In this document: positions 48,220 to 63,977 of the stretch, one piece after another
How positions within the stretch are numbered: position 1 is the first letter of the stretch
Layout: every line of letters starts with the position of its first letter
Notes under the pieces: generated by a model
The model's database searches: none
What the model saw: the letters and a program-made list of their open reading frames with translations, nothing else
What the model was told of the DNA's origin: nothing
Source: a virus
Direction: 5' to 3' (one strand)
Length of the DNA: 64,000 nt
Virus record (IMG/VR): IMGVR_UViG_3300028275_000015
Span: 1 to 64,000 of that record
Made by a program: the position numbers and the translations under genes

Positions 48220-48220
48220 T

Positions 48221-49177: not shown

Positions 49178-49185
49178 GGATTATT

Positions 49186-49827
49186 ATGAAACGAGCACTA
49201 ATTGATAGCAACAACTCTAGAGTAATTCAGATTGTTAACATCGGAGAAGAATTTGAAGTACACTCAGCATTGTATTGGGTAGATTGTCCCGATGATGCTG
49301 ACACATACTACCTGTATGATCCAGAAGAGTTAACATTTGAAGACCCACATGCGGCATCTAAAGACGAATTTGGAAATCCTGTAGAGCCATTTACTATGCA
49401 ACGTCAACGTGCATACCCTCCAGCAGGCGATCAAATGGATATGTTATGGAAAGAAATTAGAGATACTGGTGGTATTTCAGCAGACGGTGCTTGGTTCCAA
49501 TCTATACTAGCCGTAAAAGAATCAATTCCTAAGCCTGTAGCCTACGATCCAGCAAACCCTATTGCTTCTACAACTACACAATGGTATACATCTGATGGAC
49601 AGTTTGTTCAGTTATTTTCAGAAGTTAGCGGAACAGGTGGCAAAGGATCTGGTGCTAAGTTTAAAGTAAGAAAAGCAGGCGATGTGTATCAGGTTATTGC
49701 TACAACTGGCGGCACAGGATACAAAGCCAACGATGTAATTACATTGTCAGGTAATGATTATAATTGTGCTGTTACAGTATCTGAAGTAGATAATACAGGT
49801 AGCATTGTTACAGTATCTGTGAATTAA
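49186..49827 (+). CDS. tail fibre-associated protein with a C-terminal beta module (213 aa)
   Basis: The N-terminal part (1-100: RVIQIVNIGEEFEVHSALYW, AYPPAGDQMDMLWKEI) resembles proteins at the ends of phage fibre operons. The C-terminal part (about 145-213: GKGSGAKFKVRKAGDVYQV, GGTGYKANDVITLSG) is a copy of a module also seen inside both giant proteins. It is the last gene of the plus-strand block. Its TAA overlaps the stop of the convergent oxygenase gene within TTAA at 49824-49827. Confidence 0.75.
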   Translation: MKRALIDSNNSRVIQIVNIGEEFEVHSALYWVDCPDDADTYYLYDPEELTFEDPHAASKDEFGNPVEPFTMQRQRAYPPAGDQMDMLWKEIRDTGGISADGAWFQSILAVKESIPKPVAYDPANPIASTTTQWYTSDGQFVQLFSEVSGTGGKGSGAKFKVRKAGDVYQVIATTGGTGYKANDVITLSGNDYNCAVTVSEVDNTGSIVTVSVN

Positions 49828-50399
49828 ACACAGACACTATTAAACGCAATTAATATTCTTCTATCTTTTCCCAAGTATGGTTTTGCATAATGCAACATTA
49901 TACTTGGGAATATTATTAAGCGTCCAGGAATAAATTCTGCAGAGAAATTTTCATCAAAAAATTCTAGCCCGGGACGTTCGGGCAACTTAAACATATTAAA
50001 CCATATATTATTTCCGCTCTGCGGCTCATCGGCATCTATATAAAATATACCACTCCAGGTAGAGTCTGGGTGTCTATGTGGTTCATGCTGACCCAATGGA
50101 CGAGTAACGTGTGCCCAACTTTCTGTAATTGCTATATGATAATCCGATTTGTTTACAGCATTAACAAAGTCTCTAGTAGTACTGTTTAACCAAGTATCAA
50201 GAGCTTTTAACTCTGAATGTTGCTGTAAGAAACTAAAATTAGATTCCCATAAGTTTGTTTTAACCTTAGGTGCAATATTAGATTCTATGACATTAGGTTT
50301 TTCTTCTCTAAGGCATAGATCAACAATCGCATCTTTGTGATCGGTAAATTCTTTCCATTCAAATATTCCTACAGGAATAGCACCAACTGATATTATCAT
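49824..50399 (-). CDS. 2-oxoglutarate/Fe(II) oxygenase-like protein (PF13759-like)
   Basis: The start is taken at ATG 50399 (MIISVG, 191 aa), overlapping the upstream stop as ATGA; a GTG at 50408 is possible. Conserved positions fit the TIGR02466/PF13759-like 2OG-Fe(II) fold: HRHPDSTWSGIFYI (H108, H110, D112), then RLIIFPSIMLH (distal H170), then RRILIAFN (Arg for 2-oxoglutarate). Such enzymes hydroxylate or otherwise oxidise C-H bonds. It is the last gene of the cassette, and its 3' end holds a long inverted repeat. Confidence 0.75.
   Translation of the reverse strand: MIISVGAIPVGIFEWKEFTDHKDAIVDLCLREEKPNVIESNIAPKVKTNLWESNFSFLQQHSELKALDTWLNSTTRDFVNAVNKSDYHIAITESWAHVTRPLGQHEPHRHPDSTWSGIFYIDADEPQSGNNIWFNMFKLPERPGLEFFDENFSAEFIPGRLIIFPSIMLHYAKPYLGKDRRILIAFNSVCV
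49870..49908 (-). other. long inverted repeat in the 3' end of the last oxygenase gene
   Basis: CCCAAGTAT (49870-49878) pairs perfectly with ATACTTGGG (49900-49908). Two G-T pairs extend the stem, and an inner TTGCAT/ATGCAA repeat lies in the loop. There is no T tail on either side, so it is not a standard terminator. It could act as an RNA 3' barrier where the two convergent transcription units meet. Confidence 0.5.
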
Positions 50400-51070
50400 C
50401 TTACACACGTATTAACAACTAAACGGTGACCGCTATTGCATCTAGCCGCACTATGATACCTTGCACCGTTGAATATTGCTACCCTTCCCTTTTTTGGAGT
50501 TACTCTTTTAATAACACTAAAATTAGTCTTATCAACTTGACTATCGATCAATTCCAGAATAGTTTGATCATAAAATGTTAGATCTTTGCCCTCTAATTGG
50601 GCCTTTATTTCCTGCGTTTCTAAAATATCCTTTACTGTTTTATCAAAAAATACAGTATCGCCGCCATCGCTGTCGCTGGCATAATATAAACACACCATAT
50701 GATCTTCAGGAGTGTCTACATGAATATGATCAAAGTCGTTAGGACCGCATCCAGGCACAGGAAATGTTAAAAAACTTCTTGAAAACAATACATTATCAAA
50801 TGGCAGATTTGCCTTATGAAAAGATTCAAACACCATAGGTAAAATCATAGGATACAAATCACTAGTAGATCCAGTTCTTACACTATAAAACGATTTTGCA
50901 AAACCAGGTTTAGTTTTTAAATCTAGTTTGTCAATCACGTTGTCTGCTAATGCAACATCTCGAGAAAACTGCCAAGTACTAGACGGAGATAATAACCAAT
51001 TTTCTATCATATCCTGATACTGCGGACAGATAACATCATCTAATACTAAAATTTCATTTATATCTATCAT
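50396..51070 (-). CDS. prolyl-4-hydroxylase-like 2OG/Fe(II) oxygenase (A)
   Basis: The start is taken at ATG 51070 (MIDINEILV, 224 aa), with GGA 5 nt upstream and only 1 nt after the upstream stop; ATG 51082 and TTG 51085 are weaker. It carries HVD (H117, D119) in FDHIHVDTPEDHMVCLYY, GGDTVFF, then KKGRVAIFNGARYHSA (distal H206) and HRLVVN (R216). These form the double-stranded beta-helix metal site of P4H-like oxygenases. It is a close paralogue of the next gene upstream (RVTPKKGRV and FLTFP/FLQFP shared). Confidence 0.82.
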   Translation of the reverse strand: MIDINEILVLDDVICPQYQDMIENWLLSPSSTWQFSRDVALADNVIDKLDLKTKPGFAKSFYSVRTGSTSDLYPMILPMVFESFHKANLPFDNVLFSRSFLTFPVPGCGPNDFDHIHVDTPEDHMVCLYYASDSDGGDTVFFDKTVKDILETQEIKAQLEGKDLTFYDQTILELIDSQVDKTNFSVIKRVTPKKGRVAIFNGARYHSAARCNSGHRLVVNTCVR

Positions 51071-51071
51071 T

Positions 51072-51710
51072 TTATTCCACATCAAAATTTATAATACAAC
51101 GTCTTCCTTGTGTAGGAGTACTACTGCTATGATAATGTTTTCCGTTAAACAATACTACTCGTCCTTTTTTGGGAGTTACTCGTTGTTTGATAGTAAACAC
51201 TTCTTCATTAATGCCAGGAACATTGGGCACAATATCTGTGGTTTGATCATATATTATTGTATCGCCATCGCTGTCATTGACATAATAAAGACAAACTATG
51301 TGCGGTATGTTGTCATCAACGTGCGGATTATTAATGCTGGTTTGTTCTGTGGGAAATTGTAAAAAAGATCTGGCTTGAATTATATTCGACAATTTAAAAT
51401 CAATTTTTGTCAATGCTTCATATAACAGCGGTAATAATAAATTATACACAGGACTCATGCCATTAAATGTTGGCACTATAGGATGCACTAGTCCAAGATT
51501 TTGTTTTTTAACTTTTCTAGTATTAGAGTATGTAATGTCGTCCAATAAAAACCAAGGAATACTCATTTCGCTTAATAGTGTTTTTTCAAGATCATCTTGA
51601 TACATGTGATTAATCACGTCGTCAATAACTATAATATCATCGAATGATATCTGAGGTTTTAAAGAATCTTGAAATTTAAAAAATTCTTTGGACTTAGCAC
51701 TACCAATCAT
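51072..51710 (-). CDS. prolyl-4-hydroxylase-like 2OG/Fe(II) oxygenase (B)
   Basis: This 212-aa protein is a paralogue of the neighbouring oxygenase. The metal site is H130-V-D132 in NNPHVDDNIPHIVCLYY, with distal H194 in KHYHSSS and R203/R204 in GRRCIINF for 2-oxoglutarate. It opens with DDIIVIDDVI, a usual N-terminal strand-helix of the family. The ATG overlaps the upstream stop (ATGA). Two side-by-side copies suggest duplication with division of substrate. Confidence 0.82.
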   Translation of the reverse strand: MIGSAKSKEFFKFQDSLKPQISFDDIIVIDDVINHMYQDDLEKTLLSEMSIPWFLLDDITYSNTRKVKKQNLGLVHPIVPTFNGMSPVYNLLLPLLYEALTKIDFKLSNIIQARSFLQFPTEQTSINNPHVDDNIPHIVCLYYVNDSDGDTIIYDQTTDIVPNVPGINEEVFTIKQRVTPKKGRVVLFNGKHYHSSSTPTQGRRCIINFDVE

Positions 51711-52441
51711 AAGTCTAAATCTTTCCTATCTAATAGATAATTAACTTTATTTTTTATAAATTGTCTCCAGCCATATCTGCTTAACTGTCCTAGTCCCAAC
51801 AAGGAGTCTTTTCTTTTAGCATCAGATTCGTTATATTCTCTGCTAACGGCGGTAATAGTTTCCTTCTTAAATGGAATAACTTGAACTAACGGATCGCCCA
51901 TTTTAATTAATGTGTCCTTGGGTTCGAACAACATGATATTAATTGGATTATGATTTGGCACTCTGTCAGAATCTACAATAGCAGGTACTGCTTGATAATT
52001 TGCATTATGAAACCACATAGGCATCCACATTAAACTATACCCAGGTGCTGTATAGATACTCCACGGATTGTCAATTTTAATATCTGTTCTAAATTTAAAT
52101 CTATTAAACATCTCACCAAACTGTTCTTCAGGATGTGTTCTATGTTGATAGTTTAAATTACTGTAGTTTACATGATATTGGTCGTTTTGAAATTTTATTT
52201 CAATATCGCACCATGCCGGAATAACATACCCTGCCTGCAAATAATTGTTTACCGCAGGACATAATCTTACACTTAACAACGATGCAGAATTAAAATGATC
52301 AAACGGACAAATGTTTCCAGGATGCAATTCTTCATATTCTTTAGGCAAAAAGTTTCCAGCAGGCAACACAGGAGCGTGAGTCCTTATAGCCCACTCTCTA
52401 CAAGTAAATGTAATAATCGGTTCTTGTTTCTTTTTAAACAT
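51707..52441 (-). CDS. DUF6065-like protein (A), halogenase-associated
   Basis: This 244-aa soluble protein has segments typical of DUF6065-type proteins as I remember them: IPAWCDIEIKF, a WSIYTAPGYSLMWMPMWF core (about 130-147), PAIVDSDR, and a GDPLVQVIPFKKE strand (about 190-202). It shares this layout with the gene at 58443, and the two bracket the four halogenases. No catalytic residues are obvious. A jelly-roll-like binding domain presenting substrate to the halogenases is one possible role. The start overlaps the halogenase stop by 8 nt. Confidence 0.6.
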   Translation of the reverse strand: MFKKKQEPIITFTCREWAIRTHAPVLPAGNFLPKEYEELHPGNICPFDHFNSASLLSVRLCPAVNNYLQAGYVIPAWCDIEIKFQNDQYHVNYSNLNYQHRTHPEEQFGEMFNRFKFRTDIKIDNPWSIYTAPGYSLMWMPMWFHNANYQAVPAIVDSDRVPNHNPINIMLFEPKDTLIKMGDPLVQVIPFKKETITAVSREYNESDAKRKDSLLGLGQLSRYGWRQFIKNKVNYLLDRKDLDL

Positions 52442-54005
52442 TATACTTGTCTTTTAAGAACTGATATAAAGTAGGAGCGGCATCTGCAATCTTTTTCCAA
52501 TAAGTTTTATTTGACTCCCAAATATCAAATGAATCATTAACATAATCTAACCGTCTATTAAATTTAAATTCTGATCGTTTGATAACTGATTCTGTAATAG
52601 GGAAATAATTTAATCCAGCGGCAATGAAAAGTGCGCCACCTGTACTTGAGTCGTACATTGATTGAACATCTCTTTTAAAGATGGCATTATCAAATCCATA
52701 CCCTAAAAAGTCACCTGGAATTCTTTTTCCATTATTAAATTTACGCTCTCTAGCATCTCTCCAATATTGAGTGTCACTGCGTTGGCTTAATAAGTAGTGC
52801 ATACTTACAAACTCTGCAAACGCTCTGAAGTCTCCTCGATTTGCTTCGTTAAATCCAACTTTATCAATTAAACTTATATCATCGCGAGATAAAGTTTTAA
52901 CTAATCTATGCAAAAATTCGTGTACGGTGAACAAGCCATTAGACTCTAATGGTTCTATGAATCCTGCACTTAGTCCAATAGCACAAACATTTTTATGGAA
53001 GAGTTCTTCGTGAATACCTACACGCATTTTAATTAATTTAAATTCTAATGTGTCGATTAAATCTGCAGGATTATTTTCCTTCAAGTAACGTTTAAATTCT
53101 TCTAACGCATCTTCGTTGGATACATAAGCATCACTGAATACATAACCAGTACCAATTCTAGACCATAAGGGAATATTCCACACCCAGCCGTGTTCAATAG
53201 CAGTACAGTTAGTGTAAGGTTCCAACTGACTTTCTTTGTCTGTATAAGGCATTCTAGTTGCCCATGCGCTGTTATTGGGTAGTATGTCTGAATAACTCTC
53301 GAATGGCACACCTAGTGCTTTTCCTAGTAGTAGACTTTTCCAACCTGTGCAGTCGATGTATAAATCTGCTGTGATTTTTTCACCTGTAGTTAGCTCAACA
53401 CACTTAACACCTGCGCTATCAGTTTCGATATCTTCTTTGATAGTGCCTACAATATGCTGAACTCCTCGGGGCTTACAATATTCTTCACGTAGCCACATAC
53501 CAAACTTAGTAGCATCAAAGTGATAAGCCACATCGCTGTCGTAGCGCCAACCAGGTAGCTCATCATTTTCATTTTTAATAATTTTATTTTGATTAACTAA
53601 CTGCATAGCGGGAAAGAAACACTCTGCAAAATCTGTATTTGGAGTTCCAGGATACTTGGCCTTTTTAATAAACCAGTCGTTTACACCGAATACTGTTCCC
53701 ACATTCCAGGAGTCTCCGAAAGGATAATGAAATCCACCAGATCCTTTGCCTGCCCAGTCTGTGAATTTGATGCTCATCTTAAGACCAGCATCTGTGTATT
53801 TCATAAAATCGTCTTCTTTAATATCAAGTATGTGTAGCCATTCATTAATTTGACCTAATGTGCTTTCGCCCACCCCTACAGTAGGAACATCTGCACTTTC
53901 AATTAAAGAGATAGTTTTTTCTGGAAAGAATTTTATAAGAGTTGCGGCAGTCATCCAACCGGCGCTACCACCTCCGACTACAACTATGCTATTGATTTTT
54001 GACAT
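52434..54005 (-). CDS. flavin-dependent tryptophan halogenase family protein (1)
   Basis: FADH2-dependent halogenases make HOCl or HOBr at the flavin and pass it to a catalytic Lys. The 523-aa protein has GGGSAG (11-16), GVGESTLGQI (44-53), Lys76 in AGLKMSIKF (equivalent to PrnA Lys79), the halogenase motif WVWNIP near 277, and EPLESNGL near 333. All canonical residues are present, which makes it the best candidate for an active halogenase in the set. The substrate is unknown. It needs a flavin reductase, and none is visible here. Confidence 0.88.
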   Translation of the reverse strand: MSKINSIVVVGGGSAGWMTAATLIKFFPEKTISLIESADVPTVGVGESTLGQINEWLHILDIKEDDFMKYTDAGLKMSIKFTDWAGKGSGGFHYPFGDSWNVGTVFGVNDWFIKKAKYPGTPNTDFAECFFPAMQLVNQNKIIKNENDELPGWRYDSDVAYHFDATKFGMWLREEYCKPRGVQHIVGTIKEDIETDSAGVKCVELTTGEKITADLYIDCTGWKSLLLGKALGVPFESYSDILPNNSAWATRMPYTDKESQLEPYTNCTAIEHGWVWNIPLWSRIGTGYVFSDAYVSNEDALEEFKRYLKENNPADLIDTLEFKLIKMRVGIHEELFHKNVCAIGLSAGFIEPLESNGLFTVHEFLHRLVKTLSRDDISLIDKVGFNEANRGDFRAFAEFVSMHYLLSQRSDTQYWRDARERKFNNGKRIPGDFLGYGFDNAIFKRDVQSMYDSSTGGALFIAAGLNYFPITESVIKRSEFKFNRRLDYVNDSFDIWESNKTYWKKIADAAPTLYQFLKDKYNV

Positions 54006-54006
54006 T

Positions 54007-55503
54007 TTATTTTCCTAAGGCTTTATTATAATTACCTATAAATTTTTCAAGACCTACTTTATGTGGAATATGAGGTAATGTATTTTCTAAATGTTTTTGT
54101 TCGTCGACAATCCTATCACAATGCTGTCTAATTTCCGGAGTCAGCATCATATATTCATGTTTGACACGTTCTGGATTTAAGAGATTTAATCCGTGTAATG
54201 TAACTATCCAATTATCAGCAGTAAACAGTACATACTTTTGATCAAATTCTAATACCAATGGCAGTCGTTTGCTCCACTTTTCTAAATTATCTTTTAATCT
54301 TTTAGGTACCCAGGTGTCTCTGTTATTTTTAAGATCCTTCCAGAATGCTGTATCTTCTCTGGGTACGTAGTAATGTACTGCAATAAAATCTAAAATATTT
54401 TCGCAGATGTCGTCTACTCGTTTATTGTATATTCCGGCCACTTCGTCTGGACTGTTGGTCCAACTAGGCAATAAATTCATAATTAAAAAAGTCTGCAAAA
54501 TAGTTTGACTAATGGCACTACTTTCTAGTGGCTCTACAAAACTAGAACATAAGCCGATACTAGCGCAGTTTTTAATCCAAGTGCGGTCAAGTTTACCTGC
54601 ATCAAACTTGATTTTCTTTGCTATGTTTATTTTTCTACCTAACTTTGCTTCGACTTCTGCCTGCGCCTGGTCGAAATCTATGTACTTGTCACTGAACACA
54701 TAGCCGTTGCCCCATCGACCATGTACGGGAGTATTCCACATCCAACCATAATCCATACCGGTTGCGCTGGTGTAAATTGGATATTCGTCTGTATCTTCTG
54801 TAGGAAATGCAATAGCACTATTAACCCAAAGATTATCTTTATAACTTTCCCACTTTGCTCCAAGTTTTTTCATTATCACTTTGGCAAAACCAGAACAGTC
54901 AACAAAGAAATCTGCCGAGTGTACGGCATTTTCTCCAATTAGTTCTTTAACATATCCGTTGTCGTCTAAGATTACATCTACAATTTTATCATCTATTGTA
55001 GGAATGTTTCTTTCTTTACACAACTTATGTAAGTAGTCGTTGGTGGAAAATGTATTGAAATGAAATTGATTAACAGGGCAAGGAACATTAAGATTTACCC
55101 AATCTTCGGGTACTGTGCTATCGATTGTACGTTTTTGAATAATGTCTAAAGGACCAGCACCTTCTGCAATTAATTTAGCGTAAACTGCTAGATAATCTCC
55201 AGCGGGTCTTGCATAAGGTTCACAGGTAGCATGCCAGTAATCAGGCACACCCCAATTACTAAATTTTATTCCTGTTTTAAGAGTAGCATCGCAGGCAACC
55301 AGCGTATCTTCTAACCTAACACCTATAGTTTCGCAGAAGTATCTCCAATGTTCTGTAGCGCCTTCCCCTACACCTATAACTCCAACGGAAGAACTTTCGA
55401 TAACTTTAATATCTAAATGTTCATGTTGCCTTTTTAACATCAAGGCAGTAATTAATCCGCTGGTGCCGCCACCTAATACTATTATACTTTTAATTGTTTT
55501 CAT
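54007..55503 (-). CDS. flavin-dependent tryptophan halogenase family protein (2)
   Basis: The 498-aa protein has GGGTSG (11-16), GVGEGATEHW (44-53), Lys76 in ATLKTGIKFSNW and EPLESSAI. The WxWxIP motif reads WMWNTP, with Thr for Ile. It is closest to halogenase 4: both have VGEG(A/S)TEHW. Its start overlaps the upstream halogenase stop by 14 nt. Substitution at the motif does not rule out halogenation, but activity is less certain. Confidence 0.86.
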   Translation of the reverse strand: MKTIKSIIVLGGGTSGLITALMLKRQHEHLDIKVIESSSVGVIGVGEGATEHWRYFCETIGVRLEDTLVACDATLKTGIKFSNWGVPDYWHATCEPYARPAGDYLAVYAKLIAEGAGPLDIIQKRTIDSTVPEDWVNLNVPCPVNQFHFNTFSTNDYLHKLCKERNIPTIDDKIVDVILDDNGYVKELIGENAVHSADFFVDCSGFAKVIMKKLGAKWESYKDNLWVNSAIAFPTEDTDEYPIYTSATGMDYGWMWNTPVHGRWGNGYVFSDKYIDFDQAQAEVEAKLGRKINIAKKIKFDAGKLDRTWIKNCASIGLCSSFVEPLESSAISQTILQTFLIMNLLPSWTNSPDEVAGIYNKRVDDICENILDFIAVHYYVPREDTAFWKDLKNNRDTWVPKRLKDNLEKWSKRLPLVLEFDQKYVLFTADNWIVTLHGLNLLNPERVKHEYMMLTPEIRQHCDRIVDEQKHLENTLPHIPHKVGLEKFIGNYNKALGK

Positions 55504-56989
55504 AAACCAATTTTACCCATTCTTCTAAAGTATAGCAGATTGATGTTATGTTGTCAACATCGTTAGATAATTTTTGGTATGATTGGTGAAAGTCTTCAAA
55601 TATAGTTGACCGTTTGGATAATAGACGTTGTCTAAGTTTGTCTTTATTGATTAAATCCAGTCCTTGGATAACAACTGCATAATTTTCTAAAGCATATACT
55701 TCTGTATTGTCGATACCTAATGATCCAGATTTCCATAGATCTAATTTATGCTGTAATGACGCCGATATACGCTGTGGATTAGAGTTATGATCCTGCCAAA
55801 AATCGGAATCATTTCTGTGTCCTCGATAATGTAGTGAAAGGAAATCGCTGATATCAAACATTATTTTTTGATATTTGTCATTAAATGATTTTTGTTCATA
55901 CACGGTATTACTGTCGGGAGACCAAAATTCTGACAATATTTTTAATTGTTCAGCAACAGATGCTAGTCCGTTCGACTCCAACGGCTCTAAAAATCCCGAA
56001 CTAATTCCAACGGCAATTACATTATTTTTCCAAGAATTTAAAAACAACCCAGGTGTAAATTTTAAATTAGCCACCGGATCTATCTTTATATTAAAATATT
56101 TTTCTGCTTCGTCTATTGCCTGATCCGCAGTAATTCTGTCGGGGTCGTAAATGTATCCATTACCTGCCCTATGTTTTAAATTAATATTCCAAGACCATCC
56201 ATTTTTCAATGCTGTCATTTCGGTATAATTTTTAAGTACAGGCTCGTTCCACCATGCTACAACTGCCCTAGCAGGAAAATATTCGCTTAAATCCTTAAAA
56301 GGTTCATTTAATTCTTTTTGTAGAAGTAGTCTGGCGAATCCGGAGCAATCAAAAAACCAATCTGCATTTATTTGATCCCTAGTATCTAATGTAATAGAAT
56401 CAATGTCACCGTTGAGTGCTTTATTAGATTTAATATACTTGCCTTCGATTAGTTTAATCCCCTTGCTTATGCCGCGACGTTTCATATAGTCGGCATTGGC
56501 GCGGCTGTCGAAGTGCCACATAGGTAGTGTAATAACATTAAATTTACCTACACTACTAGGACTGATAGGCAATTTATTCACACGCTGTAACGATCCGTTG
56601 TAGAATATTTTTTCAGTAGGTATGCCTTCCGCCAATGAACAGGCTAAAAAATCATTACCCAATCCAAACTCTGGAAACTTAGCATTAAAGTCTAATCTAT
56701 ACCAGTCTGGTATAAGCCCATGAACAAACTCTGTTCCTATTCCGTTCCAATTTACAAATTTGCCGCCGAGTTTAGGCATGGCATTTACAGACACTATCCA
56801 GTCATCAAACGGAATTTCTAAAAAGTTGAATAGTTTATTAAGGGATGCGGAACCACTTTCTCCAGCAATAATAGGTGGAGTATTAGGGTCTTCTATTACT
56901 GTCACATCGCAGGCAGGCCACACTTGTTTAACAAACAAAGCAGTTAACCAGCCAGCACTTCCTCCGCCTAATATTGCGATGGTTTTCAT
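55490..56989 (-). CDS. flavin-dependent tryptophan halogenase family protein (3)
   Basis: The 499-aa protein has GGGSAG (8-13), AGESGSASLN (42-51; the usual VGE reads AGE), Lys73 in AMPKLGGKFVNW, and EPLESNGL. The WxWxIP site reads WSWNIN, losing the final Pro. It is the most divergent of the four. The His/Asn-rich segment near 395-420 (SLHYRGHRNDSDFWQDH) is common to the family here. It could be a halogenase with altered substrate or a related flavin oxidase. Confidence 0.84.
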   Translation of the reverse strand: MKTIAILGGGSAGWLTALFVKQVWPACDVTVIEDPNTPPIIAGESGSASLNKLFNFLEIPFDDWIVSVNAMPKLGGKFVNWNGIGTEFVHGLIPDWYRLDFNAKFPEFGLGNDFLACSLAEGIPTEKIFYNGSLQRVNKLPISPSSVGKFNVITLPMWHFDSRANADYMKRRGISKGIKLIEGKYIKSNKALNGDIDSITLDTRDQINADWFFDCSGFARLLLQKELNEPFKDLSEYFPARAVVAWWNEPVLKNYTEMTALKNGWSWNINLKHRAGNGYIYDPDRITADQAIDEAEKYFNIKIDPVANLKFTPGLFLNSWKNNVIAVGISSGFLEPLESNGLASVAEQLKILSEFWSPDSNTVYEQKSFNDKYQKIMFDISDFLSLHYRGHRNDSDFWQDHNSNPQRISASLQHKLDLWKSGSLGIDNTEVYALENYAVVIQGLDLINKDKLRQRLLSKRSTIFEDFHQSYQKLSNDVDNITSICYTLEEWVKLVYENN

Positions 56990-58446
56990 CGTTTCACTTC
57001 TTTTGCTAAGAATTCAATTGCGCCTCTGTGATTAAATTTAAGAGCATCGCGTTGGTATAATAATATATTGTCGTATATTTTATCTGTTTCAGTAATAACA
57101 GAGGGATCCTGAGACATCCATATTTGTTTTATTTTTTCTATATCAAATAATTTTAAACCGTGTAATACTTGTAACCAGTTCTGTTCTGTAAATAACACCC
57201 AGTGACTGGGAAAATATGCTCTACTTGGCACAACTGTTTTAAAGTGTTCCAGTGTATCTTTATTAAACTCGGTCAACTTTAAATCTTTGCAACTACGCCA
57301 GAATGGTGTATCGTTACGTTGAGTGATGTAATGTAACTGTACAAAGTCAATAATGTTTTTAGCAACTGCTTCAAATTGTTGATTATATTTGTCCGCTATT
57401 TTTTCGTTGCCTTTAGTCCAAGATGCCAGTGCTGATCCTAGTGCAAACGCCTGTTGAATACTAGTTCCTATGCTAGTAGCCTCGAGAGGTTCAACAAAAC
57501 TTCCAGCAAGACCTACTGCAACACAATTTTTAATCCAGAATTTATCAACATAACCTGCACTAAACTTAAAACTTTTACCTACTTGTATAGGATCTTTATA
57601 GTACTGTTGCATTTCAGACAATGCTTGATCGTCGGATAAAAATTCACTGGAATAAACGTAACCGTTGCCATAGCGTTCTTGCGTTGGTATTCTCCATGAC
57701 CATCCGCTGGATAATGCACGACTCAGGGTCCAACTTGGAAACTCGTCGTCACTGGGTGTAGGAAAAGCAAACGCTCTGTCCATGGGTAAATATTCTTTAC
57801 AATCATTCCACTTTGCGCCAAGTTTAGAACTAATGACTCTTCTGAACCCAGAAGAATCTACAAAGAAATCTGCTGTATATTTGACACCGTCTTTGTTAAT
57901 TAAAGAACTAATGTATCCTTGACTGTCAATTTCAACGTCGTCTATATCATCTTCAACAACAACTACTCCGCGTTCGATACATTTCTTGTGTAAAAATTTA
58001 TTAAGTTTAAACGTATCAAAATGATATTGATTTACACTGGCATCGATAGGAAAGTAATGTATGGAATTAATGACATTATCTGGATATAAGTGCGGCTGAT
58101 CTTCAGAAATTAATTTGACCATTACTCCTGGCAACCCGTTACCCATTAGTTGCGTATAATCGGCATGTAGAGCGTGCATATAAAATGTGCCGTCACCATT
58201 CCAATTTTCAAATCTAATACCTGCTTTGAAAGTAGCACCAGTTTCTAACATTAATTCTTGTAGAGTAATCCCTACAGTATTAATAAACTGTTTCCAATGT
58301 TCTGTACTACCTTCTCCGACGCCGACAATACCTATAGTGGGAGACTCGATAATTTTAATATCCATGGTAGGATACCACTTATTGAGTACTAGTGCCGTTA
58401 TTAGTCCGCTAGTACCTCCACCTAATATGCAAACGGACTTGATCAT
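56986..58446 (-). CDS. flavin-dependent tryptophan halogenase family protein (4)
   Basis: The 486-aa protein is the first-transcribed halogenase. It has GGGTSG (9-14), GVGEGSTEHW (42-51), Lys74 in ATFKAGIRFENW, a canonical WSWRIP motif, and EPLEATSI. The catalytic Lys and WxWxIP are intact. Its ATG lies within the A-run that ends the upstream DUF6065-like gene, giving an ATGA overlap and a possible -1 fusion. The next halogenase overlaps it by 4 nt. Confidence 0.88.
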   Translation of the reverse strand: MIKSVCILGGGTSGLITALVLNKWYPTMDIKIIESPTIGIVGVGEGSTEHWKQFINTVGITLQELMLETGATFKAGIRFENWNGDGTFYMHALHADYTQLMGNGLPGVMVKLISEDQPHLYPDNVINSIHYFPIDASVNQYHFDTFKLNKFLHKKCIERGVVVVEDDIDDVEIDSQGYISSLINKDGVKYTADFFVDSSGFRRVISSKLGAKWNDCKEYLPMDRAFAFPTPSDDEFPSWTLSRALSSGWSWRIPTQERYGNGYVYSSEFLSDDQALSEMQQYYKDPIQVGKSFKFSAGYVDKFWIKNCVAVGLAGSFVEPLEATSIGTSIQQAFALGSALASWTKGNEKIADKYNQQFEAVAKNIIDFVQLHYITQRNDTPFWRSCKDLKLTEFNKDTLEHFKTVVPSRAYFPSHWVLFTEQNWLQVLHGLKLFDIEKIKQIWMSQDPSVITETDKIYDNILLYQRDALKFNHRGAIEFLAKEVKR

Positions 58447-59204
58447 TTTTTTAAGATCCTTCTAAAGAATCTACAAATCCAAGGTTCTGATTTTACTAAT
58501 TTCTTTGGACGTAATCTATTTGGAATGACCCCCGACACAATTTTCCAACTTAAATTGTTTTGATATGATTTAAGAGACACAGAAGAATTTACAATATGAT
58601 CGAGTTCTTCTGTTCTTGGTTGTTTGTTTAATTGAAACATTGCCTGTGGGTCTCTTGCTCTAAATCTTACATAGGCTAACGGCTGTCCTCTCTTAAATTC
58701 AATTCTGTCATTGAGCATTTCAAAAGTAGGAACCAGCGGACGTTGCCAATTACAAATATTAAAACTGCCAGGCATCAATCTCCATCTTAAATCGATATGA
58801 TTATAAGGAGGTAAAAAGTCTACCCATACTTCTTCGTCTGCATAGAACAGCATGGCGCTGTTTAATGCAACTATAGGTTTATCAACTTCAGGATTAAAAT
58901 CTCCCCAGTGAACTTTGACCATAGCATCGTGTGCAAGACTTGGAAGATTACTGCTTAAAACTTTATTATATTTGTCCCAGTGCAATTCTACATCAATTAA
59001 AGAACGTATTACCCATGTTTGTTCGTTATACTTTACAAATGCAGGGCATTTCATAAATCCTACTTTTGAATCTTTCCATGTGTCTAACTTTTCTAAATCA
59101 AAATGAATAATTTCGTTCCAGCCGTAATAATTTAGCGGACCCAGTCCGCTAGTATTTGGAGATTTTTCAAACCATGGAGTATATCCTACTTTTACAACTG
59201 ACAT
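58443..59204 (-). CDS. DUF6065-like protein (B), halogenase-associated
   Basis: The 253-aa protein has the same layout as the gene at 51707: PAFVKYNEQTWVIRSLIDVE, then a WVDFLPPYNHIDLRWRLMPG core (about 132-151), then a KRGQPLAYVRF strand (about 177-187). It ends with a basic tail (FFRRILKK). Its last codons are TTA AAA AAA TGA, a slippery A-run that would open the halogenase 4 frame after -1 slippage. It directly precedes the halogenases, which fits a partner or substrate-holding role. Confidence 0.6.
   Translation of the reverse strand: MSVVKVGYTPWFEKSPNTSGLGPLNYYGWNEIIHFDLEKLDTWKDSKVGFMKCPAFVKYNEQTWVIRSLIDVELHWDKYNKVLSSNLPSLAHDAMVKVHWGDFNPEVDKPIVALNSAMLFYADEEVWVDFLPPYNHIDLRWRLMPGSFNICNWQRPLVPTFEMLNDRIEFKRGQPLAYVRFRARDPQAMFQLNKQPRTEELDHIVNSSVSLKSYQNNLSWKIVSGVIPNRLRPKKLVKSEPWICRFFRRILKK
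58446..58452 (-). other. A AAA AAA run before TGA at the DUF6065-like/halogenase junction
   Basis: On the minus strand seven A residues (A AAA AAA) end the DUF6065-like gene and touch its TGA. A -1 slip reads on through ATG into halogenase 4. Ordinary stop-start coupling at ATGA is the simpler explanation. Confidence 0.35.
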
Positions 59205-59470
59205 TATTCGTCCTTAAAATTATCATTAAAACTATACCAACTAGTCCATTTACCATAAGGACAACTTTGTGATTTATTTCTTACGGTCTTGGGCATAAAA
59301 TATCCAGTAATAGTACAGCCGTAATTTTCATACGACTTACAGTTATTGCATATTTCTAAACGTTTTTGTTCTACTTCTCTTGGGACTAGTAAAATTTTTT
59401 CGTTGAAGTGAACTCTACGTTGCGATGTATCAAGGTTTCTTATAACACGAGGTACTTTTTTATCTTCCAT
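59204..59470 (-). CDS. small Cys-containing protein (88 aa)
   Basis: The 88-aa protein has a C-x2-C (ICNNC, about 40-44) and two further Cys (GCTI, SCPYGKW, about 51 and 69), matching small zinc-binding-like proteins of marine phages. One Cys expected in related C-x2-C...C-x2-C patterns is missing, as GYFMP replaces a CGCFMP-type segment. It sits between an oxygenase and the DUF6065-like gene, overlapping both. It has a strong GGAGG ribosome site. Function unknown. Confidence 0.65.
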   Translation of the reverse strand: MEDKKVPRVIRNLDTSQRRVHFNEKILLVPREVEQKRLEICNNCKSYENYGCTITGYFMPKTVRNKSQSCPYGKWTSWYSFNDNFKDE

Positions 59471-60233
59471 CAGCGCCTCCAGTGAGCATTGCTTTTAATT
59501 GATTTATAATAATTTCCTGAGTATGTAACTTATTAAACAAATAATCCATGGTACTGTTATTCGATTCCACTATTACGGGAGTTGAAAAATTATCAGGCAT
59601 TGTAGTTTCTTTAACGACCGGATATGGTTGTTGAGAATCTAAGTATACTCCGCTGTATCTTAAATTAAATGTGATTACTATACGTTCATCATCAGTGTGA
59701 CTTACTTCAGTTTTATGTCTCAACCATCCAGGAAACATTAACACATCGCCTGATTTAATATGAATTGTGGTATTAATTTTTTCTTCTACAGGACGATTGT
59801 AAGGAATGTGTGTAATACTGTATTCCATAGGATTAGTAAACACTATTCCTCCACTACGTTCAGGAGCACTTAGATAAAAACTTACAACAATAGGGTGCAT
59901 ACTATGAGAATGCCAGTCAGTAAAACTACCGTTAACGTGTTTATTAGACCAGCACTCGTCTATTGCAGGGCGCAGACCGTCGTTGATATCCAGGACTTTC
60001 CAATATAAATTTGCATGATACAAAATTAAATCGCACAATGCTTTAAATTCTGGTACTTCATGCAAATTTCTATTAGTGCCGTAGGTACTTATACCGCCAT
60101 TTTTTTCCAACCCAACATGAAATTTTATTTCCTTGTATTGTTGTTCAAGCGTAGACCTTATGACTCCAAAGTCTATATCAGAGTCAAAAATATTAGTTTT
60201 GTAGATAGGTAACGCAAATAAATTTTGAATCAT
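59460..60233 (-). CDS. 2OG/Fe(II) oxygenase-like protein (PF13759-like, 257 aa)
   Basis: The metal-site pattern is DWHSHSMHPIVVSFYL (H108, H110), with distal H173 in MFPGWLRHKTEV and R184 in ERIVITFN. The H-x-H form is usual in the TIGR02466/PF13759 group. A C-terminal extension (about 200-257) ends in a helix (EIIINQLKAML), which may be for oligomers or docking. ATGA links it to the upstream oxygenase. It is related to the terminal gene at 49824. Confidence 0.78.
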   Translation of the reverse strand: MIQNLFALPIYKTNIFDSDIDFGVIRSTLEQQYKEIKFHVGLEKNGGISTYGTNRNLHEVPEFKALCDLILYHANLYWKVLDINDGLRPAIDECWSNKHVNGSFTDWHSHSMHPIVVSFYLSAPERSGGIVFTNPMEYSITHIPYNRPVEEKINTTIHIKSGDVLMFPGWLRHKTEVSHTDDERIVITFNLRYSGVYLDSQQPYPVVKETTMPDNFSTPVIVESNNSTMDYLFNKLHTQEIIINQLKAMLTGGADGR

Positions 60234-60841
60234 TTAACTTCGGCTTCAATATCGCCACTAAAATCAAACTTATTAACAAACGTCTTAAAAGAAATATATT
60301 TTCTTAATTCTGTACAATTTCTGTTAGGAGCAAGGCCTCTGTGAGGAATGTTACTGTCAAATACAATACAAGTATTAGGCATTGGATAATAACTGGCTAT
60401 AATATTTCCTTGATTGTCAAAAAATTGCAGTTCACCGCCCCATTCCGGGCTCCATTCTTTATTAGGAAAATAACACATTGTCATATAACCGTCGCCGTTT
60501 GAATTAAATTCAAACTCTCTGTCAACGTGTATATTTCCGTCTAGGCCAAATGTTTTGCCGCCGGCAACAACGTCAAGACTTTTAAAGTTATAACCTTTGA
60601 CTCTAGGATCTAGTGCTTCGAGTTTGTCAATAATATCCTGAAATAATACTTCTGTCCAACGATTTTTAACCATATCTACAGACCAAAAGTTTGCGTTATC
60701 TTCGATATCAAAGCCAGCGGCATTAATTTTTATAACACCGTATTTCCAAACTCCGTCGTTTAAATCTGCAATAATGTTAGCAAAAACATCTTGCTTTGCA
60801 ACGTTTTCGAGATAAAAAATTTCTGGTAATTTGTTAGACAT
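60230..60841 (-). CDS. prolyl-4-hydroxylase-like 2OG/Fe(II) oxygenase (C)
   Basis: The 203-aa protein has H105-V-D107 (GNIHVDREF), a WGGELQFF strand near 134-141, distal H167 in SNIPHRGL and R180 in LRKYISF. It is the first gene after a late-type promoter (60867-60874) and has AAGGAG 8 nt upstream, so translation should be strong. It is likely the lead gene of the 11-kb transcript that contains the halogenases. Confidence 0.82.
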   Translation of the reverse strand: MSNKLPEIFYLENVAKQDVFANIIADLNDGVWKYGVIKINAAGFDIEDNANFWSVDMVKNRWTEVLFQDIIDKLEALDPRVKGYNFKSLDVVAGGKTFGLDGNIHVDREFEFNSNGDGYMTMCYFPNKEWSPEWGGELQFFDNQGNIIASYYPMPNTCIVFDSNIPHRGLAPNRNCTELRKYISFKTFVNKFDFSGDIEAEVK

Positions 60842-60866
60842 ATATGTAATTCTCCTTAATTCGACA

Positions 60867-60874: not shown

Positions 60875-60891
60875 TGGGGTATTTTTGTGAT

Positions 60892-61530
60892 TTACTTAGA
60901 TCCGGCTTGGATAGCAATATTACCTGCTACGGAAATCCTGTAATCGTCGGACGTATAAAATGGGTGTACTTCGTGCATACATTCTGCTGGAAACAACAAC
61001 ATTTTCCCTTCCCATGTCTTATCCATGAATATAGGATTTTTAGTTATTTTACCAAACGAATTTACATAGAAAAATTCAAATGCTGATGCTAGATTTTTAT
61101 TAGAGTTTACCCCAGGACTTGCAGCCAACTCTTCATTGAGGTCATATGGAATTTGTAAGTATATTACAAAACTATATAGACCTAGATGTGTATGCGCTGG
61201 ATTGAATTCATATTTTTTCTGAAAATTAACCCATAGTGTGTCTACAGCGAAATCTAATCGCCCTGGTTTAAACACGCTGATATTAGAATTATATTTGAAC
61301 AGCTCGTTATAAGTTTCGGCTACATTAAATGCAAATGGCTCTACTACCGAAATGGAGTCTTTTAATGAATATTCTCTCTGAATATTACCAGCCAACGTGT
61401 GGTTAGTAGCAGAAGCATGGTCAAAGTCTTTTTGTATTTCTTTAACTTCCTTCCACAAAGTGTCCATAATTTCTTTAGGAACGTCTTCAATAATATAGCC
61501 AAACGAATTAAATGTTTGATAATAACTCAT
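60892..61530 (-). CDS. 2OG/Fe(II) oxygenase-like protein (212 aa)
   Basis: The fold pattern is NPAHTHLGLYSFVIYL (H113, H115), then GKMLLFPAECMHEVHPF (distal H186 or H189) and DDYRISVAGN (R198). A variable loop (about 130-170) separates the halves. It overlaps the upstream gene as ATGA. This is a separate subfamily from the P4H-like pair. Substrate unknown. Confidence 0.75.
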   Translation of the reverse strand: MSYYQTFNSFGYIIEDVPKEIMDTLWKEVKEIQKDFDHASATNHTLAGNIQREYSLKDSISVVEPFAFNVAETYNELFKYNSNISVFKPGRLDFAVDTLWVNFQKKYEFNPAHTHLGLYSFVIYLQIPYDLNEELAASPGVNSNKNLASAFEFFYVNSFGKITKNPIFMDKTWEGKMLLFPAECMHEVHPFYTSDDYRISVAGNIAIQAGSK

Positions 61531-62126
61531 ATAATAATTGGAATAAATCCCATGTTATCAAAAATTCTATCTCGATGCTCTAAGTCAAATCCAAATGTAA
61601 TTCGTTCACCCTCGTACGGTTCTAAAATTTCTACATGATGAAATCTACTACCAGGGCCTATGTAAAACTGTCCTACTTTGTTTTCAACTCTGTACAACTC
61701 TTTGCCGTTAGGCTTATCTGTAAACACAGTATGACTTTTCTTAGGATCTATAGCCATAAATCCGTGTAAAGGCCAATCATGATTATGTGTTTTAAGAACC
61801 TGTCCATTTTTATGACTGTTAATCCAAGCCTGCAACCATAGTTGTTTTGGCTTTTCGATACCCGCTAGTTCGTGATATTGTCTAATTCCGTCGATTAAAC
61901 TTGTATAGATATCATAGAACCATTGATTACAAGAACAAAGACCAAACACATTATAGTTAGCAAACTGCCAGGTAATGTTGTCTGTGCCAACAGCATAATT
62001 ACGTGCATTAAATTTTCTTTTAAATTTATCAATACCTATGTCTGTCATGCGTTGAATGTCTGCAATATTTTCAACAACATGCGGAACATCAAATGTCATG
62101 TATTGATATTCACTGTTGTAATACAT
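61527..62126 (-). CDS. 2OG/Fe(II) oxygenase-like protein (199 aa)
   Basis: A compact cupin-like/2OG pattern: KTHNHDWPLHGFMAI (H114, H116), then GQFYIGPGSRFHHVE (H163/H164) and GERITFGFDL (R175). A Trp/Tyr-rich front half (WFYDIYTSLI, LWLQAWINSH) may form the substrate pocket. It starts 17 nt inside the upstream gene with GGAGAAG as ribosome site. Oxygenase activity is inferred from the residue pattern. Confidence 0.72.
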   Translation of the reverse strand: MYYNSEYQYMTFDVPHVVENIADIQRMTDIGIDKFKRKFNARNYAVGTDNITWQFANYNVFGLCSCNQWFYDIYTSLIDGIRQYHELAGIEKPKQLWLQAWINSHKNGQVLKTHNHDWPLHGFMAIDPKKSHTVFTDKPNGKELYRVENKVGQFYIGPGSRFHHVEILEPYEGERITFGFDLEHRDRIFDNMGFIPIII

Positions 62127-62691
62127 TTCTTCTCCTAATTACTTCGTCTATTACTTCTTGTGTGGACGCAAAACTATGTCGTCCGTCAAATCTTCTATCA
62201 GAATAAGGACCCTGCTTATCTACATAATGGAAAAACCCCTGATAGTGAAAATCATTTTCTAACGCATGCCGCCAGTGTAGATTTTTAACACCTTTATAAA
62301 TTAAGATATCTCCAACGTCTAATAAAATTTCATGCCCTCTATTGCCAGACTGAACATAAATGGGCCATATATTTTTATCGTATTTTAAAGTAAGTGTAAA
62401 ACTATATTCGCACTCAAACCTATCGATATGTGGATTTAACGCTTCATTTTTTGTATAAATCCTTGAGTAAGTGTATGTTGGAAATAACTTCTTTTCCACT
62501 AGTTCTTCTATTTTAGGTAACCACAATTTTGATTCGTCATTAAAAATTCCATAAAAAGTAGGACTAGACGGACACTGATTATCCGGCGGCAAGTTATAAC
62601 CTTTTTTATAAAAGTCGTCTAATTTTTCAACCATACGATTGCAAGTATCTGCATCTGCAAATCCTTTGATAACTTTGTAATCTTCCTTCAT
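62110..62691 (-). CDS. prolyl-4-hydroxylase-like 2OG/Fe(II) oxygenase (D)
   Basis: The start is taken at ATG 62691 (MKEDYKVIKG, 193 aa) behind GGAAAT; an earlier ATG would extend it 14 residues into the upstream gene. The metal site is H88-I-D90 (LNPHIDRFECEYSFTLTL), with distal H139 or H142 in GVKNLHWRHALE. The GDILIYKG strand is typical. It differs from the other P4H-like proteins in lacking an obvious RxxxxN after the distal His. Confidence 0.75.
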   Translation of the reverse strand: MKEDYKVIKGFADADTCNRMVEKLDDFYKKGYNLPPDNQCPSSPTFYGIFNDESKLWLPKIEELVEKKLFPTYTYSRIYTKNEALNPHIDRFECEYSFTLTLKYDKNIWPIYVQSGNRGHEILLDVGDILIYKGVKNLHWRHALENDFHYQGFFHYVDKQGPYSDRRFDGRHSFASTQEVIDEVIRRRNVLQQ

Positions 62692-62692
62692 A

Positions 62693-63343
62693 TTATTTCC
62701 AATAACATTCCATAGGATCCGCAGGTTGCACAAAATCTTCAGGATTTAATTTTAAAATTTGATCCTTATTATCAATAGCATTGATAATTTTGTTGTATAC
62801 CATAAGATTATTTTCTTTGGTTAAATGACATTTTCTGTTTTCATTGTTACCTGGATGATCTAGACCATAGAATTGTAATTCTAAATCAGCATAGTGGCAC
62901 AATGACCAAGAATTTAAATTAGGCAAACTTTCTAAAAATGCAGGGACAACTAACACATCCTGATACTGTAATATGTCATTAACCATAAAATTATGAAACG
63001 CAGTTTCTCGTTTGCTGGAATAAAAGTACCTAAAATACATTTCTCCAATGTTAATGCCATCCCATACTGGCCATGTACTAGGATTTAAATTCAAATGCTT
63101 ATTGTTATATTCTACATGAATTCTGCCCGGAACTGTTACCACAAATATTGCCAAATCGTAACTGGCGTGAGTTTCTAAAAATTTATCATAACTCCACCAC
63201 ATGCTAGAACCTGTAAGAGAATAATTTTTGACAGTGTATTTCTGTTCTAACATCTCAGGCCACGACAAATAGTCGTTTTGTACCCACGACGGATCTGAAA
63301 AACTATCCCCGTATATGGCTAATTTAGGTTTCTTGTTCATCAT
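62693..63343 (-). CDS. SGNH/GDSL-hydrolase-like protein (216 aa)
   Basis: The start is taken at ATG 63343 or 63340 (MNKKPKLAIYGDS), which overlaps the upstream stop; the longer 249-codon frame would overlap the neighbour far more. The N-terminal IYGDSFSDPSW has the block I Ser (near residue 14), and a late DHPGNNENRKCHLTKENN has a His that could complete the site. Members act on esters, including acyl and acetyl groups on glycans or lipids. A GxND-type block III is not clear, so activity is uncertain. It is the only hydrolase-like gene in the cassette. Confidence 0.65.
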   Translation of the reverse strand: MMNKKPKLAIYGDSFSDPSWVQNDYLSWPEMLEQKYTVKNYSLTGSSMWWSYDKFLETHASYDLAIFVVTVPGRIHVEYNNKHLNLNPSTWPVWDGINIGEMYFRYFYSSKRETAFHNFMVNDILQYQDVLVVPAFLESLPNLNSWSLCHYADLELQFYGLDHPGNNENRKCHLTKENNLMVYNKIINAIDNKDQILKLNPEDFVQPADPMECYWK

Positions 63344-63977
63344 ATATAAAATTAAGGTTACAGAAAAATGGTTGAAATAGTCTACCCGTCTCAGGCGTTG
63401 AACCAAAATACCTATCCGATTTGTGCCAAGCATTTGGTCCATAAATTATAGCACGATTATATACGTTAGGTATAGACATTGTCTGTTTAAAAAATTTATG
63501 AAATTCTTTGCTGTCCTGATCTCGATTTAATTTAAACCACAAATGATTATTACGTGCGGCATATTCTTCAAACTCTTGTCTGTGTTCTTCGTTAAATTTG
63601 TAAAACAAAGTTCCTGAATTATCAGGAGGATTTGGATGCAAATACACAACACCAACATGAGTACAATGCCACGTGGGCGTGTCGTAGTGTACCCAAGAAT
63701 CTCCATCGGATTCGTAGCACAGTTGAAAATTTGTTTCAATATATCCGCCGTATTTTATAGGATTATTTTCTAATAAATTTCCAAGAAACGCATTATGAAA
63801 TTCGTCGGACAATTCTTGATTAAGATTGTGTAAGAAACTTGTTCTTCGTCCAGGCCAGTTGCCTCCTGCATTGGCTTCTTTACAATTTTTAAATTCTTGA
63901 TTAAGAGCAAACTTTCGTATTTTGTCAGGATCTTTGTAAAAATTATCTATAATTAATATTTTGTCATTCATCCACAT
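63324..63977 (-). CDS. DUF6445-like 2OG/Fe(II) oxygenase-type protein (217 aa)
   Basis: This is the first cassette gene visible at the right edge. Its start at ATG 63977 has GGAG upstream; the codons from MNDKIL (63971) could also be used. It shows H97-Y-D99 (SWVHYDTPTWHCTHVGVVYL), distal H185 in YGPNAWHKSDRYFG and R199 in GRLFQPFF. This resembles DUF6445, a family I recall near tryptophan halogenase genes in bacteria. That makes it a useful context link, but the family call is from memory. Confidence 0.7.
   Translation of the reverse strand: MWMNDKILIIDNFYKDPDKIRKFALNQEFKNCKEANAGGNWPGRRTSFLHNLNQELSDEFHNAFLGNLLENNPIKYGGYIETNFQLCYESDGDSWVHYDTPTWHCTHVGVVYLHPNPPDNSGTLFYKFNEEHRQEFEEYAARNNHLWFKLNRDQDSKEFHKFFKQTMSIPNVYNRAIIYGPNAWHKSDRYFGSTPETGRLFQPFFCNLNFIYDEQET

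Follow-up and report, generated by a model that had tools for sequence, protein, structure and literature searches.

A phage cassette of four flavin-dependent halogenases and eleven oxygenase-like genes, an expanded and inverted form of a cyanophage gene arrangement

Halogenases encoded by viruses have been explained in print by antibiotic protection, by halogenation of metabolites, and by decoration of polysaccharides or secondary metabolites (PMC2984593, PMC9964418, PMC7824862; here and below, papers are cited for the portions of their text available to us). The characterized viral iodinase VirX1 has been described as a trimer with a large accessible active site (PMC8407142), and has been placed with group C enzymes, including the lanthipeptide halogenase MibH (PMC8269204). 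Here we analyze a run of genes containing four flavin-dependent halogenases and nine oxygenase-like genes in a 64,000-nucleotide stretch of viral DNA (positions 1 to 64,000 of IMG/VR record IMGVR_UViG_3300028275_000015, hereafter the window), and find that this cassette is an expanded, inverted form of a known cyanophage gene arrangement. The VirX1 chain (PDB 6QGM, cyanophage Syn10) is identical over 529 residues to gp42 of syn9, and the characterized iodinase therefore itself belongs to such a cassette. We propose that the cassette is a fiber-tailoring module acting on the phage's own glycine-rich (Gly-rich) tail-tip adhesins, a reading we regard as about evenly poised between right and wrong.

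The cyanophage arrangement is seen in S-RIM44, Sf-CH11, syn9, P-RSM6, and Sf-FP1, where fiber genes are followed on one strand by one or two halogenases and then by oxygenase-family genes carrying various names. An initial annotation of the window, made from its letters alone, had taken a single viral halogenase to be known and had been aware of no set of four beside so many oxygenases; the first statement is wrong and the cassette is not unique, as 82 phage records match the window's halogenase H4, S-RIM44 carries three halogenases, and cassettes of the same kind with one or two halogenases, including that of VirX1 itself, occur in T4-like cyanophages. The rest of its description of the layout largely holds. 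Positions 49824-63977 are occupied by 17 close-packed open reading frames (ORFs), all on the minus strand and at the places it reported: four halogenases (H1-H4), nine oxygenase-like genes (O1-O9), two genes first assigned to a domain of unknown function (DUFa and DUFb), a small cysteine-rich gene (CYS), and an SGNH-like gene. Starts overlap the previous stop at 14 of the 16 junctions, and 15 of the 16 are no more than 1 nt apart; among co-directional junctions in the rest of the phage, 82 of 213 overlap. At the two longest overlaps (41 and 119 nt), our ORF caller, a simple longest-first method, has probably placed a start codon too early. The run does not stop at the window edge and continues with two further 2-oxoglutarate (2OG)-Fe(II) oxygenase genes (O10 and O11), a NUDIX gene, a tail-sheath/stabilizer-type gene, and a virion structural gene, which brings the oxygenase-like genes to 11. 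The cassette and the adjoining fiber genes are as follows.

fibW, 45790..46731, plus strand: Gly-rich (23% Gly) tail-fiber/adhesin-like protein by composition and phrog_863 'tail fiber assembly' (E 7e-45); candidate substrate
fibX, 46738..48219, plus strand: Gly-rich adhesin paralogue, 60% identical to fibW in alignment; candidate substrate
fibY, 48221..49177, plus strand: Gly-rich adhesin paralogue, phrog_863 (E 6e-35); candidate substrate
fibZ, 49186..49827, plus strand: gene beside the adhesins, overlapping the cassette's last gene by 4 nt; phrog_1787 (unknown function)
O1, 49824..50408, minus strand: 2OG-Fe(II) oxygenase, PF13759 (E 2e-15)
O2, 50396..51085, minus strand: 2OG-Fe(II) oxygenase-like, sub-threshold PF13640, phrog_274, metal motif
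O3, 51072..51710, minus strand: 2OG-Fe(II) oxygenase-like, sub-threshold PF13640, metal motif
DUFa, 51707..52441, minus strand: predicted dUTPase-fold protein and halogenase partner, by AlphaFold2, Foldseek, and adjacency
H1, 52434..54005, minus strand: VirX1-clade flavin-dependent halogenase, PF04820 (E 4e-105)
H2, 54007..55503, minus strand: flavin-dependent halogenase, WMWNTP in place of WxWxIP
H3, 55490..56989, minus strand: divergent flavin-dependent halogenase, WSWNIN and IAGESG
H4, 56986..58446, minus strand: flavin-dependent halogenase, WSWRIP
DUFb, 58443..59204, minus strand: remote DUFa-type protein, phrog_17480 (E 7e-18) and DUFa's family phrog_7084 (E 9e-4)
CYS, 59204..59470, minus strand: 88-residue Cys-rich protein, DUF6171 below cut-off, phrog_13558; by its sequence perhaps a zinc ribbon
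O4, 59460..60233, minus strand: 2OG-Fe(II) oxygenase, PF13759 (E 1e-14)
O5, 60230..60841, minus strand: 2OG-Fe(II) oxygenase, PF13640 (E 9e-9)
O6, 60892..61530, minus strand: 2OG-Fe(II) oxygenase, PF13759 (E 9e-11)
O7, 61527..62126, minus strand: 2OG-Fe(II) oxygenase-like, phrog_2696 and phrog_81, sub-threshold PF13759
O8, 62110..62733, minus strand: oxygenase-like, HxD motif, phrog_2954 and phrog_3531 only, no Pfam match; start probably later
SGNH-like, 62693..63442, minus strand: weak match to PF16822 (E 0.028, below cut-off); start probably later than called
O9, 63324..63977, minus strand: DUF6445 (PF20043, E 3e-14), phrog_1644, oxygenase-like HxD motif

All four halogenases match Pfam Trp_halogenase (PF04820) at 294-353 bits against a cut-off of 21, and each of them aligns with VirX1 at the GxGxxG FAD motif and at both catalytic residues, Lys and Glu. 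The WxWxIP motif is kept in H1 and H4 and changed in H2 and H3. VirX1 is the best PDB match of H1 (E 9e-104; 39% identity), and in a maximum-likelihood tree H1 lies inside an 11-row VirX1 clade with support of 100/98, with H2, H3, and H4 in other clades outside it. Pairwise identity among the four is 24-26%, except for H2 and H4 at 40%; given these values and the separate clades, we reject recent tandem duplication. A pattern for the Trp4 motif ([YFH]YHG), built from the group B (tryptophan halogenase) rows in PMC8269204 and run without a PrnA or RebH positive control, is absent from H1-H4, from VirX1, and from syn9 gp41. Orthologous halogenases have pN/pS of 0.24-0.37 with dS saturated, and H4 has a dN/dS of 0.13 against its counterpart in the sister lineage L388 (the 'H2' row for a second sister lineage, L389, in our selection table is a non-orthologous best match at 37% identity). 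Judged from these sequence divergences, the halogenases are under purifying selection, and we reject decaying genes on the same pN/pS range.

The oxygenase-like genes are more varied in how they are recognized. O1, O4, O5, O6, O10, and O11 exceed a 2OG-Fe(II) Pfam cut-off, O2, O3, and O7 match 2OG models below cut-off, O9 passes DUF6445, and O8 is without a Pfam match. A combination of motif search and reading locates an HxD/HxH...H...R site in O1-O11, several of them with HxH rather than HxD, and with the second His and the Arg of O8 ambiguous. The PHROG labels 'DNA endonuclease V' (O2), 'ferrochelatase' (O8), and 'minor coat protein' (O9) look like mislabels; GenBank cyanophage records bear the same three labels on oxygenase-like families.

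A tight partner of the halogenase is DUFa. Its AlphaFold2 model (pLDDT 73) matches dUTPases in Foldseek (E 4e-5), a VIA comparison with a dUTPase structure gives a Z of 11.9 and 4.5 Å over 127 residues, and 5 of 23 DUFa family members match Pfam dUTPase (best E 1e-6), so that DUFa is predicted to have a dUTPase fold. This assignment fits better than the earlier 'DUF6065-like' label, since PF19541 (DUF6065) is matched by 2 of the 23 members, with a best E of 0.0065, and the window protein is not among them. In the column that profile alignment locates for the motif III Asp, which we take to be the dUTPase catalytic residue, the 23 members have Asp in 2, Asn in 12, His in 7, Ser in 1, and Trp in 1; most are unlikely to be dUTPases, because this Asp is lost in 21 of 23. 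DUFb appears to be a remote relative: in a scan limited to a handful of proteins, it matches the DUFa profile at E 2e-4, and its counterparts in L388 and L389 do so at 2e-8 and 5e-6, respectively.

The pairing of halogenase and DUFa recurs from several starting points. In our first locus set, which was chosen by halogenase, DUFa stands directly behind the halogenase in 35 of 42 occurrences. With DUFa as the query against other phages (best 80 of 89 relatives kept, 75 of which had the required 700 bp upstream), a halogenase lies directly upstream at 74 of 75 usable loci, or 20 of 21 distinct ones. Among named phage records with DUFa, 14 of 15 have it right behind a halogenase, where the 15 represent about eight distinct phages and the 14 about seven, with gaps computed for eight records and read from tables for the others. 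DUFa is found in syn9, S-RIM44, and Sf-FP1 (the S-RIM44 copy being missed by our profile scan and detected by tblastn), and a distant relative (25.6% identity) sits beside a transaldolase gene in S-RIM4 (L483, record 158324-159118). A genome_contigs scan, covering close relatives only, returned a single 9-kb contig (L222) in an actinobacterial metagenome-assembled genome, with the order Gly-rich gene, 2OG gene, halogenase, DUFa; this contig is probably viral. We also observed a small ORF (72-135 residues in those printed, 'KLNPYG..IDFSKRQE') often lying behind DUFa in VirX1-type loci L303-L382; ORFs behind DUFa with a CYS-type CxxC and three Cys number 0 of 51. One locus (L374) combines two halogenases with three DUFa-type genes in a row and five 2OG genes, and lacks a Gly-rich gene on the same strand within 3 kb.

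Gly-rich genes, defined by at least 15% Gly over at least 200 residues, account for 188 of 2591 genes (7%) across 16 phage genomes, with a mean of genomes of 9%. A scan with VirX1 as the query (80 of 90 loci kept) reduces to 22 distinct loci, of which 21 have a Gly-rich gene on the same strand within 3 kb, 14 have DUFa immediately after the halogenase, and 18 have a 2OG gene within 6 kb. Among the raw loci, 54 of 80 of which entered the position count, the nearest Gly-rich gene is 2-4 genes upstream at 53 of 54 and 3 genes downstream at one, and fibZ homologues stand between the adhesins and the halogenase in the VirX1-type loci displayed. With H4 as the query, a Gly-rich gene on the same strand is present at 11 of 15 distinct loci (p = 4e-9 in a binomial test on the 9% baseline; the 15 are what remains of L009-L079 after removal of 70% redundancy, one locus per contig, and a flank requirement). 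Individual loci place the halogenase beside or among adhesin genes: three fibW-type genes, an H1-like halogenase, and fibZ in one contig (G002), a tail fiber gene, halogenase, and gp37-gp38 adhesin tip in order in S-SRM01, a halogenase behind collagen-like genes with one gene between in the actinophage DSL-LC01, and two modules with a Gly-rich pair each in G015. In the window itself, fibW-fibZ abut the cassette convergently rather than lying upstream of the halogenase on its own strand. A phmmer search of fibW against the PDB gave no match at E 0.1, and tblastn against phages returned 2 records, probably owing to its low-complexity filter.

The composition of these Gly-rich proteins shows a trend in histidine. 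Within the same genomes, pooled His is 3.5% in 32 proteins within 6 kb of a halogenase, some of them from near-identical phages, vs. 0.5% in 11 proteins more than 15 kb away. Median His is 4.2% in 117 VirX1-linked Gly-rich proteins vs. 1.3% in 13 from six control cyanophages, where the controls are any Gly-rich protein rather than matched adhesins and one of them, S-ShM2, carries a short divergent halogenase. Some halogenase-side Gly-rich genes reach 10-11% His (G010, G015, and G019).

Collectively, these observations are consistent with a fiber-tailoring module, which may work as follows. During virion assembly, the phage would make Gly-rich, often His-enriched adhesins of the fibW/X/Y type, and the halogenases, drawing on host FADH2 and on halide from the surroundings, would put iodine or bromine on electron-rich adhesin side chains, with His and Tyr as prime candidate residues. 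The dUTPase-fold partner would hold the halogenase, the substrate, or both, and the 2OG-Fe(II) oxygenases would hydroxylate other side chains of the same fibers, the outcome being a hardened or diversified receptor-binding surface. The window's lineage carries an enlarged set, with four halogenases and eleven oxygenase-like genes, which is inverted relative to the fibers. A reductant from the host is perhaps needed, since the flavin reductase family PF01613 was not found in the 270-kb phage to which the window belongs, in a search of this family only; the initial annotation, too, had seen no flavin reductase. Its broad suggestion, that a virus-encoded system may oxidatively tailor proteins, peptides, or surface molecules, is in keeping with this reading, and gene position narrows it to the phage's own Gly-rich tail-fiber adhesins.

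A more specific form of this idea is a dedicated phage machine, present in several lineages, that halogenates and hydroxylates the phage's own adhesins, His foremost, with a dUTPase-fold adaptor seating a trimeric halogenase on a trimeric fiber. dUTPases are usually trimers, as are tail fibers, and a three-fold match of DUFa, VirX1, and fiber is offered here as a suggestion. We consider the dedicated machine possible and rather doubtful, the more so because the window's DUFa keeps its Asp, the pair is looser in the wider lineage, and the Trp4 pattern lacked its positive control.

Several observations weigh against fiber tailoring, along with the displaced halogenases and glycosyltransferase clusters taken up with the alternatives below. 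With H1 as the query, none of 10 distinct loci (from 39) has a Gly-rich gene on the same strand up to 3 kb away, and DUFa is directly behind at 1 of 10; some of these loci belong to the window's lineage, with convergent fibers, and others have different neighbors. In the H4-query scan, 4 of 15 loci are without a Gly-rich neighbor. A whole-genome rank test gives only moderate values (Fisher p = 3e-4 at 15% Gly and 0.007 at 12%) on 11 of 17 blocks, with both S-RIM44 blocks, G003, G004, G018, and G019 left out as relatives, and among the blocks left out the third S-RIM44 copy has a rank p of 0.86. Because the compared proteins share ancestry, p-values are overstated and the histidine differences are trends; the window's three adhesins have only 1.6-3.2% His, those of S-SRM01 and DSL-LC01 are not His-enriched, and in the comparison with control cyanophages Tyr is equal and Trp lower (as is Asp) in the VirX1-linked proteins. 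As for DUFa, the window's own copy is one of the two members with Asp and cannot be judged as a dUTPase or not by this residue; in G003-type loci some 3 kb separate DUFa from the halogenase, with DUFa on the opposite strand, in L389 the two are one gene apart, and no halogenase is annotated in the 11 kb around the S-RIM4 relative. Finally, the AlphaFold model of fibW (pLDDT 57) is too poor to use.

The alternative that survives best is synthesis or decoration of a small molecule or surface polysaccharide, for instance a halogenated, hydroxylated metabolite, a capsule, or part of a lipopolysaccharide, that would help the infected host to compete or would exclude other phages; we judge this unlikely yet worth weighing. 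Such a role has been published for a cluster in the jumbo cyanophage S-SSM6a that combines a halogenase, 2OG enzymes, and carbamoyl transferases (PMC7824862), and S-SSM7 has a similar mix. Sugar enzymes also occur near some of the halogenases, with glycosyltransferases some kilobases from the halogenase and 2OG genes in S-SCSM2R, one directly behind the halogenase in DSL-LC01, and a family-2 glycosyltransferase cluster that recurs at 10 of the 76 loci, most often six genes downstream; the window itself contributes a single weak SGNH-like gene. Against this, a Pfam scan of the 17 cassette genes found no carbamoyl transferase, glycosyltransferase, or peptide-synthesis gene, and the recurrent neighbors of VirX1-type halogenases are fiber genes, DUFa, and 2OG genes. 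The same scan found no match to nonribosomal peptide synthetases or polyketide synthases, and we reject a cluster for a ribosomally synthesized and post-translationally modified peptide because a precursor peptide gene has no space between the packed genes, in line with the initial view that this is no ordinary natural-product cluster.

Adjacency to fibers could instead be an effect of genome architecture, with the interval between fiber and neck genes serving as a cargo hot spot and the enzymes acting on host proteins or metabolism, an explanation we find fairly improbable. Cassettes do lie between fiber and neck genes in S-RIM44, Sf-CH11, and Sf-FP1, and this interval may be a general insertion site, which makes the position evidence indirect. 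Some halogenases are located elsewhere—those of S-MbCM6 and the third S-RIM44 copy among psbA/hli/talC-type genes, that of HTVC008M adjoining the terminase—and five control cyanophages without a halogenase still hold 4-7 2OG genes. A hot spot, however, accounts poorly for halogenases among the adhesins themselves in G002 and S-SRM01, for two G015 modules with their own Gly-rich genes, and for like adjacency in contigs outside the VirX1 clade.

A PrnA-like role, chlorinating free tryptophan to give the host antibiotic protection, although proposed in print (PMC2984593, PMC9964418), seems very improbable given the unmatched Trp4 pattern in H1-H4, VirX1, and syn9 gp41, with its positive control not run, and given that pyrrolnitrin-type partner genes are absent among the cassette genes scanned. 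Hardly more credible is that the 2OG enzymes serve DNA repair, base modification, or 2-oxoglutarate signaling unconnected with the halogenases, as proposed for DNA repair and signaling by cyanophage 2OG genes (PMC3037559, PMC9146016), when 2OG genes are interleaved with halogenases in a single packed run and most VirX1-clade loci (18/22) have one no more than 6 kb from the halogenase.

The cassette varies among relatives. An 84-kb record contains the window and corresponds to part of a 270-kb contig (G001), with 2 mismatches over 64 kb; proteins of the portal, major head, SbcC/SbcD-like, and baseplate types mark the phage as T4-like. The possibility raised at the outset of a one-off assembly error finds no support, and we reject an assembly artifact on the basis of H4 at 100% in eight contigs (L001-L008), the 2 mismatches in 64 kb, and sister lineages among other phages. 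Two further grounds for refutation named in the initial annotation also fail, as the catalytic Lys is present in all four halogenases and the metal-site motif in the oxygenases, uncertainly so in O8. Two such lineages (L388 and L389), in which H1 is about 70% identical, keep the cassette; L388 retains four halogenases and L389 three, lacking H2, and both carry an additional 2OG gene before H1 that is not in the window, differences that suggest a quickly changing set of tailoring enzymes. Neither has a counterpart of O6, L388 has none of CYS, and the best matches of O4 in the sister loci are only 29-32% identical. A matching cassette in the more distant phages G003 and G004 has counterparts of H4, H1, and H3 at 40-46% identity (43% for H3 and its G003 protein) and a shorter, divergent fourth halogenase (385 residues), and stands between the same kind of fiber genes and the same NUDIX/tail genes on the strand of the fibers; in the window, L388, and L389 the block has the same neighbors and is nonetheless inverted relative to the fibers.

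We found no psbA-type gene in the window's phage, which may therefore have a host other than a cyanobacterium. The 270-kb contig yields 32 tRNA calls and one tmRNA call, including a tRNA with anticodon CTA listed by ARAGORN as tRNA-Pyl (L096:12503-12576, in G001 outside the window), possibly an amber suppressor; the window itself has no tRNA, and an Rfam scan of 44000-64000 gave no match. At 3156-3605 of the window, an ORF labeled 'NAD synthetase' (phrog_447) also matches three homing-endonuclease families, and the label looks wrong.

Within the literature searched, the tight dUTPase-fold partner, the quantified link to fiber genes including those of VirX1, and the hypothesis of a native substrate appear to be new. 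No proposal of tail-fiber halogenation was present among the matches listed in open-licence PMC literature, judged by titles and abstract openings. The 20 S-TIM4 genes that acquired mutations on new hosts are mostly fiber and baseplate genes and include one 2OG gene, ORF23 (PMC6224464); the available text of PMC9910659 names no oxygenase or halogenase. In the dedicated-machine form of the idea, halogenated protein would be an adhesion chemistry used by viruses, and VirX1 would have a phage protein as its native substrate. If fiber tailoring is correct, halogenation would be a further chemical means for phages to vary the recognition of hosts, and would provide protein-level halogenases for biotechnology. 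The synteny makes the native VirX1 substrate testable in isolated phages (syn9 and Syn10).

Compared with known systems, the window's cassette is closest to the VirX1 locus, which likewise lies behind fiber/adhesin genes, is followed by DUFa and a run of 2OG genes, and has a halogenase that shares a clade with H1; the window differs in its larger number of oxygenases, in its four halogenases, which fall in separate clades, and in a block inverted relative to the fibers. The runs of T4-like cyanophages such as syn9, S-RIM44, P-RSM6, Sf-FP1, and Sf-CH11 share the adhesins, halogenase, and 2OG-family genes, but have 1-2 halogenases and approximately 4-9 oxygenase-family genes, as counted from labels, on the strand of the fibers. 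The S-SSM6a cluster resembles the cassette in joining a halogenase to several 2OG enzymes in a jumbo phage (PMC7824862), and differs in its carbamoyl transferases and sugar enzymes, none of which were found in the window's cassette. Among group C bacterial flavin-dependent halogenases (BrvH, the Xcc enzymes, and MibH), BrvH (6frl) is the second-best PDB match of H4.

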